Assembly: GCA_031177355.1 (NCBI GenBank)
Contig: JAPSGR010000002.1
Coordinates: forward strand, 1 to 34,160
Source: Candidatus Nitrosocosmicus sp.
GTDB taxonomy: Archaea; Thermoproteota; Nitrososphaeria; Nitrososphaerales; Nitrososphaeraceae
DNA: 34,160 nucleotides
Reading direction: 5' to 3'
The position numbers and the translations under genes were made by a program. This document shows, piece after piece, positions 1,077 through 14,727 of the stretch. The notes below the pieces were generated by a model, which had not been told where the DNA came from, did not search any database, and saw only the letters and a list, made by a program, of their open reading frames with translations. Position 1 is the stretch's first letter, and each line of letters begins with the position of its first letter.

Positions 1077-1874
1077 TTAACTGTATGGTAAGTCAGCTGA
1101 AAGTTCACTCAAAGAAGAGAGTGTTTCGCCTAAATCTTTGCCACCAGTAGTCCACACAATCAATGTTTGTGTATCGCCAGTTCCCTCTTGACCGCCTCTC
1201 AAGTCTTTAAAGTCATATGTATTATCTACTGTAATTCCTGCGGCAGTTATCTGTGAAATATATTCATCAATATCCTGTGTGGGAACCATTAGAATTCCAA
1301 CTGTATCAATGTTGCTAGATGAACTAGAAGATGATATTACAGGTGACTGAATGTTATCTACAGTAACAGAACCAGTCATCGTTACACCTGGATCGCCCTC
1401 TGCTTCATAGTTAAATATCCCAGGATTAGTAAAAGTAAATGGCGGTGATGCTTGGCTATCAATTATTTCTCCGGTATTAAATACAGAATTACCACTAGCG
1501 TCTTTGACATCGACAGTGCGTTCATGTCCTACATCACCATTAAACCATTGTATGGTTGTACCAGTGTTAACAACAGCGTTTTCTGGCACAAAATGTTGGT
1601 CTAAGAAACGAGCTTCATTATCTTCGCCAGCATCATGATGACCTTCATTAGGAATAAGAATAACAACGTTTTGTATGTTGTTGCCTAATGTCATTGTCTT
1701 TGTATTAAAAATGCTTACCGCACTTATATTTGGCTGTACTTCTGCGCTTTCAGAAGAATTTGTTTGAGCAAATACACTGGTTAAAAAAATAAAAGAAGTT
1801 GGTCCCGATAAAACTAGGATACATGCAATAGATAAAAGTATATGAATATGTGAATTTTTATTATTAGATTCCAT
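1077..1874 (-). CDS. Exported cupredoxin-fold protein with degenerate copper site
   Basis: A 265-residue protein. Residues 1-36 form a signal peptide (hydrophobic core about 12-33, possible cleavage after VFA). Residues about 68-172 read as a plastocyanin/cupredoxin domain: FVPENAVVNTGTTIQWFN, then GHERTV, then PGIFNYEAEGDPGVTMTGSV. In a blue-copper protein the last segment carries Cys-x-x-His-x-x-x-x-Met. Here the Met (166) and the first His (117) remain, but the Cys and second His positions are Ala and Asp, so a type 1 copper centre is unlikely. A seven-Ser linker (181-187) leads to a C-terminal domain of about 75 residues that I do not recognise. A His-His-rich patch precedes the domain (about 79-94). 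A TATA-like element at about 1896-1906 fits a leaderless transcript from ATG 1874. Exported cupredoxins are abundant in ammonia-oxidising archaea; this one may be structural or bind metal differently. Confidence 0.8.
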   Translation of the reverse strand: MESNNKNSHIHILLSIACILVLSGPTSFIFLTSVFAQTNSSESAEVQPNISAVSIFNTKTMTLGNNIQNVVILIPNEGHHDAGEDNEARFLDQHFVPENAVVNTGTTIQWFNGDVGHERTVDVKDASGNSVFNTGEIIDSQASPPFTFTNPGIFNYEAEGDPGVTMTGSVTVDNIQSPVISSSSSSSNIDTVGILMVPTQDIDEYISQITAAGITVDNTYDFKDLRGGQEGTGDTQTLIVWTTGGKDLGETLSSLSELSADLPYS

Positions 1875-6382: not shown

Positions 6383-6952
6383 TTGACACATATTGCAGTT
6401 TTTGTTGGATCAGTAAGAAGAGATAGAAAAGGAATTGCGGTAGCTAGATGGATCGAGACCAAACTAGAGGAAAGAAATCACAAAGTTTACTTTATAGATC
6501 CAATGGAACTAGACTTGCCATTACTTGATAGAATGTATAAAGAAATGGAAAATCCTTCTGAAAAACTTGTAGAACTAAGAGACAAAATCAAGAATGCAGA
6601 GGGATATATCCCAGTTACGCCAGAATATAACCGAAGTACATCAAGTGCATTGAAAAATACTCTTGATTATTTTTTGGAAGAATATTATTTCAAACCTTCA
6701 GCAATTGTTTCTTATTCTCCTGGTATGTTTGCAGGAATCAATGCCGCACAGCAATTAAGATTGATATTTGCAGAATTGGGTTCGCCATCAATACCTTCGT
6801 CATTTGCAATACCGATGGTACACAAGGTATTTGATGAGGAAGGAAATTTAATTGATAAATCATATGATAAAAGAGTAAACAAATTTCTTGATGAGTTTGA
6901 GTGGTATGTGAAAGCATTAACACATCAGAGATTAAAAGGTACTCCGTATTGA
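6383..6952 (+). CDS. NADPH-dependent FMN reductase family protein
   Basis: A 189-residue flavodoxin-fold enzyme of the NADPH-dependent FMN reductase / azoreductase-like family. It is expected to bind FMN and pass electrons from NAD(P)H to flavin, quinone or similar acceptors in the cytoplasm. Seen: the N-terminal phosphate loop (AVFVGSVRRDRKG, about 5-17), the flavin-contacting segment GYIPVTPEYNRSTSSALKN (about 73-91) and the late SYSPGMFAGINAAQQLR region. Length matches the family. There is no in-frame ATG, so the start is TTG 6383, with a TATA-like element about 35 bases ahead implying a very short leader. The exact acceptor cannot be told from sequence. Confidence 0.9.
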   Translation: MTHIAVFVGSVRRDRKGIAVARWIETKLEERNHKVYFIDPMELDLPLLDRMYKEMENPSEKLVELRDKIKNAEGYIPVTPEYNRSTSSALKNTLDYFLEEYYFKPSAIVSYSPGMFAGINAAQQLRLIFAELGSPSIPSSFAIPMVHKVFDEEGNLIDKSYDKRVNKFLDEFEWYVKALTHQRLKGTPY

Positions 6953-7008
6953 GTGACAGATACTCATAACTGTTCAATCGTTAAATAACACTTTAAGGTC
7001 ATTCTGAT

Positions 7009-7131
7009 ATGACATCTAGTAATAATACCTATAGATGCAAGGAGTGTGATGCAATCTTCAACGATGAAAATGATTTTCTGGAACATAAAAATTACGCAAA
7101 ATTTCGAAGGGAGGGATCCTGCTGGCAATAA
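7009..7131 (+). CDS. C2H2-like zinc-finger mini-protein, 40 aa
   Basis: A 40-codon gene from ATG 7009. It reads YRCKECDAIFNDENDFLEHK, which matches the first half of a classical C2H2 finger (Y-x-C-x2-C-x3-F-x5-L-x2-H). The fourth ligand may be a later Cys (SCW at the C-terminus) in place of the second His. A TATA-like TTAAATAAC at about 6980-6988 lies about 25 bases ahead of the ATG, as for a leaderless transcript. Single-finger proteins of this size occur in archaea and are presumed to bind nucleic acid or proteins. The start lies 57 bases after the FMN reductase. Confidence 0.65.
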   Translation: MTSSNNTYRCKECDAIFNDENDFLEHKNYAKFRREGSCWQ

Positions 7132-7515
7132 GTAGGACAAAAGATTTAATTTAAAATAAAATGAAATTTCTCATGATCCTCTATAAACATACATCTAAAA
7201 ATGCATGTTATTTTTGCACTTATCGTACTCCATTTGAGATAATTGTATAATAAGGAATATTTTCTATAAAAAAAAGAATAAACCCCTGAATACATGCAAT
7301 GGGTTCAAATTCCGACCCTAACCATCAATCGGATCATCCTTTTATCTCCGATCACCGCGCTATCATATCTATATGTCAAAAATATGTAAATTTCAATATA
7401 TGAGAATATTCTGAATGCCAAAATCTCATATTCTCGGTTATTGTTAACTATTTCTTTATAAATAACGTGAATGAATTTAATTACCTATATAAACAATTTT
7501 GTATATTATTTATAA
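7132..7515. other. Intergenic, promoter of SRPBCC gene
   Basis: The only element I can place is a TATA-like CTATATAAAC at 7485-7494, 22-31 bases ahead of ATG 7516. A tRNA-3'-end-like string at about 7301-7324 does not fold into a tRNA. Confidence 0.5.
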
Positions 7516-7974
7516 ATGACATCCGTAAAAACTGAAGTTGAAATTAATGCACCAATAGAAAAAGTTTTTGAATATTATACTAATCCAGACAACATACAAG
7601 ATTCATGGCCACGAGATGTAGTAAAGGGATCAGAAAATGTATCTGGACAAAAAAGTGAAGAAGGCTCAGAAATGAAGGTAGAAGGAGAATATATGGGTAA
7701 AAGAGATGAAATGCTTCTAGAGGTGACAGAAAAAGAACAGAATAAAAGATTAGTTACAAAGCAAACAGAAGGGCCTTTTCAGAGTTGGGAAAGCATACAA
7801 GAATTCCAAAGCAATGGAAATAACTCTACAAGAGTAACACATACTATAAACTATGAATTACCTACAACAGGAAAGGTTGCAAACTTTTTGACTGGAAGCC
7901 AAGCAGACGATAAAATAAGACAAGGAATAGAACAAGCAGCTCAAACAGTAAAACAAAAATTAGAGCAAAGTTAA
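7516..7974 (+). CDS. SRPBCC (START/polyketide-cyclase-like) protein
   Basis: A 152-residue helix-grip protein. The N-terminus has the family hallmark VEINAPIEKVFEYYTNPDNIQDSWP, followed by a beta-sheet core with KVEGEYMGKRDEMLLEVTEKE and TRVTHTINYELP and a long C-terminal helix (about 132-152). Such proteins bind a hydrophobic ligand in a cavity; some are cyclases, some stress or lipid-binding proteins. There is no signal peptide, so it is cytoplasmic. ATG 7516 is well placed behind a TATA box. The ligand cannot be predicted, and neighbouring genes on the same strand are too distant to suggest an operon. Confidence 0.85.
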   Translation: MTSVKTEVEINAPIEKVFEYYTNPDNIQDSWPRDVVKGSENVSGQKSEEGSEMKVEGEYMGKRDEMLLEVTEKEQNKRLVTKQTEGPFQSWESIQEFQSNGNNSTRVTHTINYELPTTGKVANFLTGSQADDKIRQGIEQAAQTVKQKLEQS

Positions 7975-8144
7975 CACACCTATCTTTATTTTTATATAAA
8001 ATTTATTTTACTAATAATTTCTCGGGGTTCACTTTTTTTGATTCATTAATGCTATATAATTAATTGGAAATCGCACTGTTGTCTACACACTTTGATAGTC
8101 CGAAACCTCGTTATTTCTGTCTCCAGTCATGAAATCCACTATAG

Positions 8145-13009: not shown

Positions 13010-14146
13010 TCAAACTACTCGGCGTATTTTTGAAATCTTTTTTTTGGCATAGTCTTGAACTCTCCCGTATAACAGACCTGTTATCAAGCCTAAAATGGCA
13101 CCGATAACTATCGTAAATGGTAATACGTATGACAAGGAATTTAGGAAAACGGGAAGTATGTCAACCAAAGTGGTAAATTCCGATTTTGCAAGATCTAAAG
13201 GCATCAAATTGTCGCCCAGAGTTAGAGGTAATAAAGGATATCCAATCAAGTAGAATAATGACCCAGTAATAGTTCCAGCATATACCATTATCTTTTTCGG
13301 GTTTGGTTTATTCTTAAAAAATTGCAACTTATTATAAACCAGCATATCTATGACAATGAATGGTATTGCGGAGACTAAATAATATGGCAAAAAGACTGAA
13401 AGTTCCCTTGATGGTAAGATATTTGAAAAGGATATTAGTAAAATCAATCCAACTCCAACTAGACTTACATACCCAAATTTTTTAATTGTATTAATGGTAA
13501 CCAAAACCATTAAGGAATTAATCACCGGAAGAAAGATTAATGCTATGGATGATTCTAGTAGTGGGTGGAGATTAAAATTGAATTCCTCGCCATTAGAAAT
13601 TGGCAACGCGAAAATATATACATAAGAAATTAAGTTAAGCCATAGTGCAATTAATCCAATTACGAGGAACATATGGTTAATTGTATATGATAGTTGGTCT
13701 TTAGGCAACGAATTGACTCGTATTAGTCCGATTACCGTACCAATTGAATTAATAATCATACCCGTTATTAGCATTAAATGAGTGGGACTAAGAAATCCAT
13801 CAACTCCAAATAATTCATGCCAAACAAAATCACTGGGTCCTGAAATAATAGACAGCATCGACCCTATAATGATCATCTTAAAGCAGGAGTAGATAGGGTC
13901 CTTTTTTATTTCATTATGCCTTGCCACAAGATAAACTGAGGCCAAAGCAGAAATTGAAAGAAGGAAAATTCCGAAATATAATACTGTGTGAGAGGGAGTG
14001 AAAAAAGTCTCTGGTTTTAGTAACAAATGAGATGTTACATCCCAATTGCCACCGAAAATCTGTAAAATGGAGCCGAATGAGGCAATAGAAAGCAGAATAA
14101 TACAAAAATTTAGGATCTGTCTGTTAATCATATGGCTCGCATACAT
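13010..14146 (-). CDS. AmoC/PmoC-like membrane protein with long C-terminal membrane extension
   Basis: A 378-residue multi-pass membrane protein, roughly ten hydrophobic segments. Two matching motifs stand out: D36-x3-H40-x12-H53 (WDVTSHLLLKPETFFTPSH) and D106-x3-H110-x12-H123 (DFVWHELFGVDGFLSPTH). From published PmoC structures (M. capsulatus numbering, recalled), CuC is held by Asp156, His160 and His173, the same spacing as motif 1. CuD is held by Asn227, His231 and His245, close to motif 2 with Asn replaced by Asp. The context F-x-x-P-x-H and the segment KMIIIGSM before motif 2 also resemble archaeal AmoC as I remember it. Residues about 150-378 are an extra membrane domain absent from the roughly 190-residue archaeal AmoC. 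No amoA or amoB gene is nearby. A TATA box and a palindrome precede ATG 14146. Homology is an inference from motifs; the role could be copper handling or oxidation chemistry. Confidence 0.8.
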   Translation of the reverse strand: MYASHMINRQILNFCIILLSIASFGSILQIFGGNWDVTSHLLLKPETFFTPSHTVLYFGIFLLSISALASVYLVARHNEIKKDPIYSCFKMIIIGSMLSIISGPSDFVWHELFGVDGFLSPTHLMLITGMIINSIGTVIGLIRVNSLPKDQLSYTINHMFLVIGLIALWLNLISYVYIFALPISNGEEFNFNLHPLLESSIALIFLPVINSLMVLVTINTIKKFGYVSLVGVGLILLISFSNILPSRELSVFLPYYLVSAIPFIVIDMLVYNKLQFFKNKPNPKKIMVYAGTITGSLFYLIGYPLLPLTLGDNLMPLDLAKSEFTTLVDILPVFLNSLSYVLPFTIVIGAILGLITGLLYGRVQDYAKKKISKIRRVV

Positions 14147-14169: not shown

Positions 14170-14179
14170 CATATAAATA
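14170..14179 (-). promoter_or_regulatory. TATA box of the AmoC-like gene
   Basis: On the minus strand TATTTATATG lies 24-33 bases ahead of ATG 14146, the position expected for a leaderless archaeal transcript. Confidence 0.55.
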
Positions 14180-14181
14180 CT

Positions 14182-14195
14182 ACTGACCAGTCAGT
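14182..14195. promoter_or_regulatory. Operator-like palindrome ACTGAC-CA-GTCAGT
   Basis: This is a perfect 6-bp inverted repeat around a 2-base centre, immediately upstream of the TATA box (the BRE side) of the AmoC-like gene. Its form resembles operators of TetR-family repressors. A bound factor here would be expected to affect TFB/TBP loading. No TetR gene is in the window. Confidence 0.5.
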
Positions 14196-14433
14196 CAAAT
14201 TTCCGGATATTAGAAATTAGATTTGAATAGAGAAGATGGTATAATTATAGATATTTCATTGAACCATCGAAATACATTTGACAACAAGTTGTAATTGTAA
14301 ACTCAAAATGTATTGTTCATAAATTTTATTTTTCAGTCTAAAGGCGCTTTGGATTTACTTTAATAAAATTGTAATAATCATCATGGATATGGCCCGTAAA
14401 AACCCAGTATATCTCGAAACTAAAGACTATAAT

Positions 14434-14727
14434 TTAGATCTCATAGTCTCGTTTAAATGAGGGTACAAAATCGATTATGTCGTCGTATTTTCTCACAAAT
14501 TCATTACCCTTAGGAGTAGCCAAGAATCGTTGTTGTTTTTCGTCAAATATCAGCAAGTCTAAACGTACGAGATCAGCCAAATAAAGATTGAGACGTCTAT
14601 ACGAGCTATAGTAGCTTAACTTATTTTTGGTTTGGTATTTACCAATACAACTCTTCACAATCAAATAAAAGATCTGACATTTATCACGATATTTTGTTTT
14701 ACCTCTTTCTCTTCCCTCGACCAGCAA
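14434..14727 (-). CDS. Winged-helix DNA-binding protein
   Basis: A 97-residue protein typical of small archaeal winged-helix regulators. An N-terminal basic stretch precedes RDKCQIFYLIVKSC (helix 1), SYYSSYRRLNLYLADLVRLDLLIF (helix-turn-helix with recognition helix), and the wing FLATPKGNEFVRKYDDI, a common pattern (T-x-KG-x-x-F-x-x-x-Y) in thaumarchaeal members. The only usable start is TTG 14727, with an in-frame stop five codons upstream. It lies 287 bases upstream of the AmoC-like gene on the same strand, so it could regulate that gene or be unrelated. It is not TetR-like, so it does not obviously explain the palindrome at 14182. The ligand is unknown. Confidence 0.75.
   Translation of the reverse strand: MLVEGRERGKTKYRDKCQIFYLIVKSCIGKYQTKNKLSYYSSYRRLNLYLADLVRLDLLIFDEKQQRFLATPKGNEFVRKYDDIIDFVPSFKRDYEI

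Follow-up and report, generated by a model that had tools for sequence, protein, structure and literature searches.

The gene and its two metal-site motifs

A reverse-strand gene of Candidatus Nitrosocosmicus sp., lying in a window of 34,160 nucleotides (the whole stretch of DNA analysed here), raises the question of whether a long membrane protein encoded away from amoA and amoB is a relative of CuMMO subunit C (AmoC/PmoC/HmoC), and of what such a protein might do there. An earlier note had described it as a divergent AmoC/PmoC-like protein, twice as long as archaeal AmoC, with two Asp/His motifs of identical spacing, D36-x3-H40-x12-H53 and D106-x3-H110-x12-H123. Both motifs do lie at these residues of the 378-aa protein, archaeal AmoC measures 187 aa, and the gene is indeed apart from amoA/amoB, the amoA of the same MAG being on contig C93; of its amoC only fragments at contig ends remain. 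The features of the coding region are as follows.

13010..14146 (-), AmoC/PmoC-like membrane protein of 378 aa, open reading frame with an ATG start, stop codon included
13907..14101 (-), metal hairpin 1, residues 16-80, CuC equivalent, with D36/H40 at the end of TM1 and H53 at the start of TM2
13697..13891 (-), metal hairpin 2, residues 86-150, CuD equivalent, with D106/H110 at the end of TM3 and H123 at the start of TM4
14039..14041 (-), codon of D36, site 1 ligand, invariant in 40 homologues
14027..14029 (-), codon of H40, site 1 ligand, invariant in 40 homologues
13988..13990 (-), codon of H53, site 1 ligand, invariant in 40 homologues
13829..13831 (-), codon of D106, site 2 ligand, invariant; Asn in AmoC, HmoC and a third archaeal class
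13817..13819 (-), codon of H110, site 2 ligand, invariant in 40 homologues
13778..13780 (-), codon of H123, site 2 ligand, invariant in 40 homologues
13013..13696 (-), C-terminal membrane module, residues 151-378, helices in the model, not present in AmoC

Neither the 1142 neighbouring ORFs outside the family nor 20,000 shuffles of the protein yielded another sequence with two D-x3-H-x12-H motifs. When the homologues were aligned, all six motif residues were invariant (40/40); the eight His of the protein include no invariant ones beyond the four ligands, and the invariant Asp are limited to D36, D106 and D116. The C-terminal module has conserved features of its own, namely LPxSxGxxFNFN and D267.

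Relationship to CuMMO subunit C

In PmoC, CuC is held by D156/H160/H173 and CuD by N227/H231/H245, the two sites being about 6 A apart (PMC12576850); the residues agree with those from which the comparison had started. In our alignment the family has D,H,H at site 1 and D,H,H at site 2, and AmoC has D,H,H and N,H,H. The CuC pattern Asp-x3-His-x12-His is present, with D36/H40/H53 on the D/H/H of AmoC and HmoC; of the CuD pattern Asn-x3-His-x12/13-His only the His are kept, an invariant Asp replacing the Asn. The Asp had already been remarked upon in this protein; it is present at site 2, as a family-wide rule and not as an odd substitution. Two resemblances named in the earlier note were also borne out: the F-x-x-P-x-H context is common to the protein and archaeal AmoC, and KMIIIG has its counterpart in LK(M/L)TIIGY when true archaeal AmoC is aligned.

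Pfam and NCBIfam scans of the window protein gave no match at E<=10, including PF04896 and TIGR03078; true AmoC and HmoC do match the CuMMO subunit C family models. In a search of 61 related genomes, true archaeal AmoC was among the weak matches, covering query residues 17-145 with per-genome E values of about 1e-3 to 1e-4. A profile of 40 archaeal sequences run against 177,635 PDB sequences returned three matches, all bacterial AmoC (E 0.003-0.017) with the ligands in register, and a profile of bacterial relatives independently led to the same three chains (E 0.007-0.09). By hhalign, the archaeal long family aligned with HmoC at Prob 94 (E 1e-7) and with archaeal AmoC at Prob 76 (E 2e-5). Unrelated membrane families remained below Prob 1, but a decoy made by reversing the family itself rose to Prob 55, which would make the archaeal AmoC value weak if it stood alone. 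A Foldseek search of the modelled N-terminal domain against 350,542 chains gave AmoC 9pxf_G as best match (prob 0.99, TM 0.53, E 0.08); AmoC was absent from the top 50 PDB matches of the full-length model, and a search of BFVD yielded nothing useful. With only AmoC chains returned by the PDB profile search and AmoC placed first for the N-terminal domain, the AmoC/PmoC-like assignment is upheld, and homology to AmoC/PmoC is supported.

The protein is not an AmoC copy; it is one branch of a broader, separate family that shares the metal core of PmoC and has only about 22-28% identity to AmoC over the core. In common with CuMMO subunit C (PF04896, TIGR03078) it has two hairpins bearing D-x3-H-x12-H and (N/D)-x3-H-x12/13-H in the same order and register, the FTPSH and KxxIIG segments, and its closest PDB match by sequence and by domain fold. 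It differs by escaping the family models, by Asp at the CuD Asn position and by its extra C-terminal module, and the family differs by lacking AmoA/AmoB linkage and by occurring in genomes where AmoA is undetected. A tree groups AmoC, HmoC and an Asn-type archaeal class at 89/90; because its branches are long and it has no root, we leave the direction of descent unclaimed. The AmoC1-6 proteins of N. viennensis are genus-level copies of canonical AmoC (PMC10030591). The organism group and the stand-alone AmoC-homologous genes are common to these soil AOA paralogues and to the present gene, which unlike them belongs to a separate divergent family. No account of this family was found in the open-access literature searched, which leaves out most subscription papers and preprints, and it is apparently undescribed so far.

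A duplicated hairpin and its predicted membrane face

One two-helix hairpin, duplicated in tandem, makes up the metal domain. Its two copies, residues 16-80 and 86-150, give an ungapped alignment of 60 columns in which each ligand meets its counterpart, the offset being exactly 70 (score 62.6, hhalign Prob 97.9, E 3.5e-13); the highest score in 90 column shuffles was 19.8. The same internal duplication is present in a bacterial branch fused to an additional tail (Prob 97.0), and was undetectable within the TPWH bacterial branch, AmoC or HmoC, each taken alone. By hhalign, and in register in both cases, hairpin 1 of HmoC pairs with family hairpin 1 (Prob 96.4) and hairpin 2 of archaeal AmoC with family hairpin 2 (Prob 79.4). 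These matches suggest that CuC and CuD of methane/ammonia monooxygenases are probably two copies of one ancestral hairpin, an inference that depends on the family as its bridge.

The AlphaFold2 model of the full-length protein has a pLDDT of 88 and a pTM of 0.90, and that of the N-terminal domain a pLDDT of 92. In the model TM1 ends with D36/H40, TM2 starts with H53, TM3 ends with D106/H110 and TM4 starts with H123, which would place all ligands at one membrane face. Ligands pointing to opposite faces had been named as the outcome that would refute PmoC-like sites; this outcome was not seen, the four ligand-bearing helix ends sharing one face in the model, and that the six ligands converge would be an inference from helix order. 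The average number of K/R is 0.3 in loop 41-51 and 0.0 in loop 113-121, compared with 3.1 in loop 76-85 and 4.3 at the C-terminus, and these counts put the metal-site face, by prediction, on the extracytoplasmic side.

Distribution in archaea and bacteria

Homologues were found in 39/61 related genomes, and 68 of the 398 genomes of the phylum had a match. The archaeal proteins comprise a long class (about 345-440 aa), a short class (about 197 aa) and, in four other genomes, an Asn-type class (300-315 aa). The motifs of this last class are D-x3-H-x14-H and N-x3-H-x13-H, with Asn at the CuD position as in the monooxygenases. Its loci (L124:6880-7827, L125:5551-6498, L126:6160-7062 and L127:7157-8092) belong to archaea without detectable AmoA. 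When contigs of bacterial and archaeal species were scanned for a narrow peptide pattern, 43 loci emerged, all in Thaumarchaeota. In nine genomes with a member (those of L090 and L091, and G043, G051, G052, G129, G192, G228 and G273) no AmoA was found; G051 is only 77% complete.

Bacterial coverage consists of plasmids, without a genome-wide bacterial survey behind it. The ten tblastn matches on plasmids comprised four HmoC and six uncharacterised proteins, from Streptomyces, Mycolicibacterium, Arthrobacter, Rubrobacter, Nonomuraea and Paenibacillus, and further searches led to relatives in Leifsonia, Rhodococcus and Deinococcus; none were found in viral contigs or phages. The six ligands occupy the expected columns in 68/69 aligned sequences, the exception being the Deinococcus protein, where the Asp and His of site 1 are present and displaced by extra loop residues. 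Homology between the archaeal C-terminal module and the bacterial C-halves was undetectable.

The genome under study carries a second family paralogue of 423 aa (G000:C105:21925-23097; L031, L154), downstream of genes that by eye resemble those for lysyl-tRNA synthetase and Elp3.

A putative operator and the archaeal neighbourhood

Two further features lie upstream of the start codon.

14171..14177 (-), TATA-like TTTATAT, -31 to -25 from the ATG, read from the sequence; promoter role inferred
14182..14197 (-), putative TetR-type operator TGACTGACTGGTCAGT with core ACTGAC-NN-GTCAGT, a conserved palindrome without binding data

At about 20 distinct loci the ACTGAC-NN-GTCAGT palindrome is closely followed by a TATA-like box and then by the start codon. 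The sequence TGACTGACYRGTCA has one exact match per genome in 7/7 genomes of the genus Nitrosocosmicus (genus names in part inferred from the named loci of the contig scan), always before this gene; its backward-read control also occurs about once per genome and, in the window, corresponds to the same near-symmetric site. A Nitrososphaera-like genome has TGACTGACYRGTCA before a lone TetR gene, and in the subgroup of the window a TetR-family gene lies directly downstream in 14 loci, with a gap of 0-114 bp. In the window itself no TetR gene is adjacent, and no TetR orthologue was detected in the MAG at E 1e-5, with the operator present. At another locus (G009:C12:9942-10571) the TetR gene that follows the family member has two stop codons and the operator is retained.

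No copper-homeostasis gene lies directly beside the gene in the window. A winged-helix gene upstream (14434-14727, (-)), whose orthologue matches PF14947 HTH_45, is kept in this position in several Nitrosocosmicus genomes. At 1077-1874 (-), 11 kb from the AmoC-like gene, the window encodes a secreted protein with a stretch that by eye looks cupredoxin-like, of the blue-copper type.

Membrane-anchored neighbours of the family, c54 and c78, occur in two other archaeal branches and look beta-sandwich-like, as judged by eye from sequence. The c54 gene is directly upstream of the AmoC-like gene at L161:7880-8452 (4 bp overlap) and at L137, L140, L149 and L159, a pairing that resembles that of AmoB and AmoC in layout only.

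Copper-related context of the bacterial relatives

The relatives on Streptomyces plasmids pFRL3/4 are near genes for a multicopper oxidase, a cupredoxin, DUF305 and DUF5134, and that of S. mirabilis is near cupredoxin, HMA and P-type ATPase genes. The Leifsonia relative has two P-type ATPases, a metal-sensitive regulator, YHS and HMA proteins, a four-helix copper protein and a multicopper oxidase in its vicinity; those of M. chubuense and Rhodococcus are near CopY and HMA genes and near a multicopper oxidase gene, respectively. No copper context was seen around the Deinococcus and Rubrobacter relatives.

Five relatives (L171, L172, L178, L179 and L180) are fused to a tail beginning A-x-A-H-D-P-G-Q-G. 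This tail of the actinobacterial members is extracytoplasmic and beta-sandwich-like, with AxAHDPGQG invariant. On a speculative view, cleavage by signal peptidase at this motif would leave the tail with an N-terminal His, as CopC and PmoB have. Profiles gave no support for c54, c78, c11 (a neighbour of the short class) or the bacterial tail as AmoB or CopC homologues.

On NC_018022.1 (L175 and L180), a Mycolicibacterium chubuense plasmid, a real hmoCAB operon and an AmoC-like fusion are about 166 kb apart, and the fusion adjoins TetR and CopY genes.

A proposed copper-handling role and its alternatives

We favour, with a probability of about one half, that the protein binds copper extracytoplasmically and passes it on or sequesters it; the identity of the metal and the handling function are inferred, without binding data. 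The scaffold would combine the second membrane module with the two tandem-duplicated hairpins, which would each present one Asp/His/His site on the extracytoplasmic side. Induction of the gene would follow release of the operator beside the promoter by a dedicated TetR-family repressor, whose contact with the operator is itself inferred. Copper, if copper it is, may then be bound at the two neighbouring sites and be handed over or sequestered at the outer membrane face, a CopD-like job in copper homeostasis or stress, the protein presumably acting outside ammonia monooxygenase rather than as a part of it. The homology, the six conserved sites and the outward face count for copper handling, and the operator with its TetR gene for the proposed regulation. 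The bacterial neighbours, among them heavy-metal P-type ATPases and metal-sensitive or CopY-type regulators, also favour it, as do the beta-sandwich-like neighbours in other archaeal branches and, if the analogy with CopC-CopD fusions and the PmoB-PmoC partnership is accepted, the beta-sandwich-like fusion; the nine member genomes without detected AmoA favour independence from AMO. Like CopD and CopC-CopD fusions (PF05425, PF04234), the family offers a multi-helix membrane protein in copper islands, with a beta-sandwich-like extracytoplasmic domain fused to it in bacterial relatives or encoded beside it in some archaeal branches; unlike them, it has no CopD or CopC profile match. Counting against copper handling, the copper context is bacterial and stems from a few actinobacterial plasmids, on which resistance genes are over-represented, the window has neither a neighbouring copper-homeostasis gene nor, in its MAG at E 1e-5, a TetR orthologue, and genuine CopD proteins are already encoded in this genome, on contigs C21 and C41. 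TetR repressors, moreover, sense organic molecules more often than metals.

The main alternative, possible though tentative, would be a stand-alone copper oxygenase or oxidase whose PmoC-type site would be catalytic without A and B subunits, with TetR sensing a hydrophobic or toxic substrate and the beta-sandwich partner or fusion supplying or accepting copper or electrons. A TetR acting on its own private operator is a typical arrangement for inducible detoxification genes, and on two mycobacterial plasmids the relative likewise has an adjacent, divergent TetR gene with a palindrome over its start codon. Both triads are strictly invariant, and recent PmoC structures have CuD as the putative active site (PMC12576850). 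Yet no conserved redox partner or substrate-pathway gene lies alongside, site 2 has Asp where all CuMMOs examined have Asn, and the bacterial context is one of copper resistance, not catabolism. A zinc-dependent membrane hydrolase of the CREST/ceramidase type, with Zn in the Asp/His/His sites, is unlikely: that superfamily also uses Asp/His sites in a multi-helix bundle, and the metal here is unidentified, but the protein has no Pfam match to such families at E<=10, both sequence and domain-fold searches put AmoC first rather than ceramidase or PAQR, and the ligand spacing is that of PmoC.

Homology to AmoC and the abundance of family members in nitrifiers could point instead to an alternative AmoC subunit or to an AMO assembly or copper-loading factor. 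This we regard as improbable, since the family is present in bacteria, where a CuMMO on the same plasmid is rare and was seen only in M. chubuense, and in archaeal genomes where AmoA was not found; linkage to amo genes is also lacking, Asp stands for Asn, and the length is double. A copper or redox sensor signalling to the neighbouring regulator has the least to recommend it and is very doubtful. The TetR gene shares an operon with the family member in relatives, and a winged-helix gene is upstream, but the protein has no signalling domain, and TetR proteins bind their ligands directly.

The origin of the metal core of particulate methane/ammonia monooxygenase and the identity of its active site are open questions on which a family of this kind bears. 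A large two-site family without the other subunits provides an outgroup for the CuMMO metal core and a single-polypeptide system for testing metal binding. It might even represent the wider stock of the CuMMO C subunit, a still symmetric, duplicated one-site hairpin with Asp/His/His in both copies, working in archaea and bacteria as an inducible membrane copper enzyme free of A and B, although we would put this forward only as a conjecture with the odds against it. For nitrifying archaea, whose growth is strongly copper-dependent, the protein is a candidate for a specifically switched copper protein, and it is a candidate copper protein for actinobacterial copper-resistance islands as well.

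Most members of one small-genome AOA family carry the short class. It has both triads at L129, L131, L133, L135, L141, L142 and L160 (about position 6500-8000), where it adjoins the TM-beta-TM protein c11 with heme-copper oxidase genes within a few kb, and it is possibly a copper factor for the terminal oxidase.
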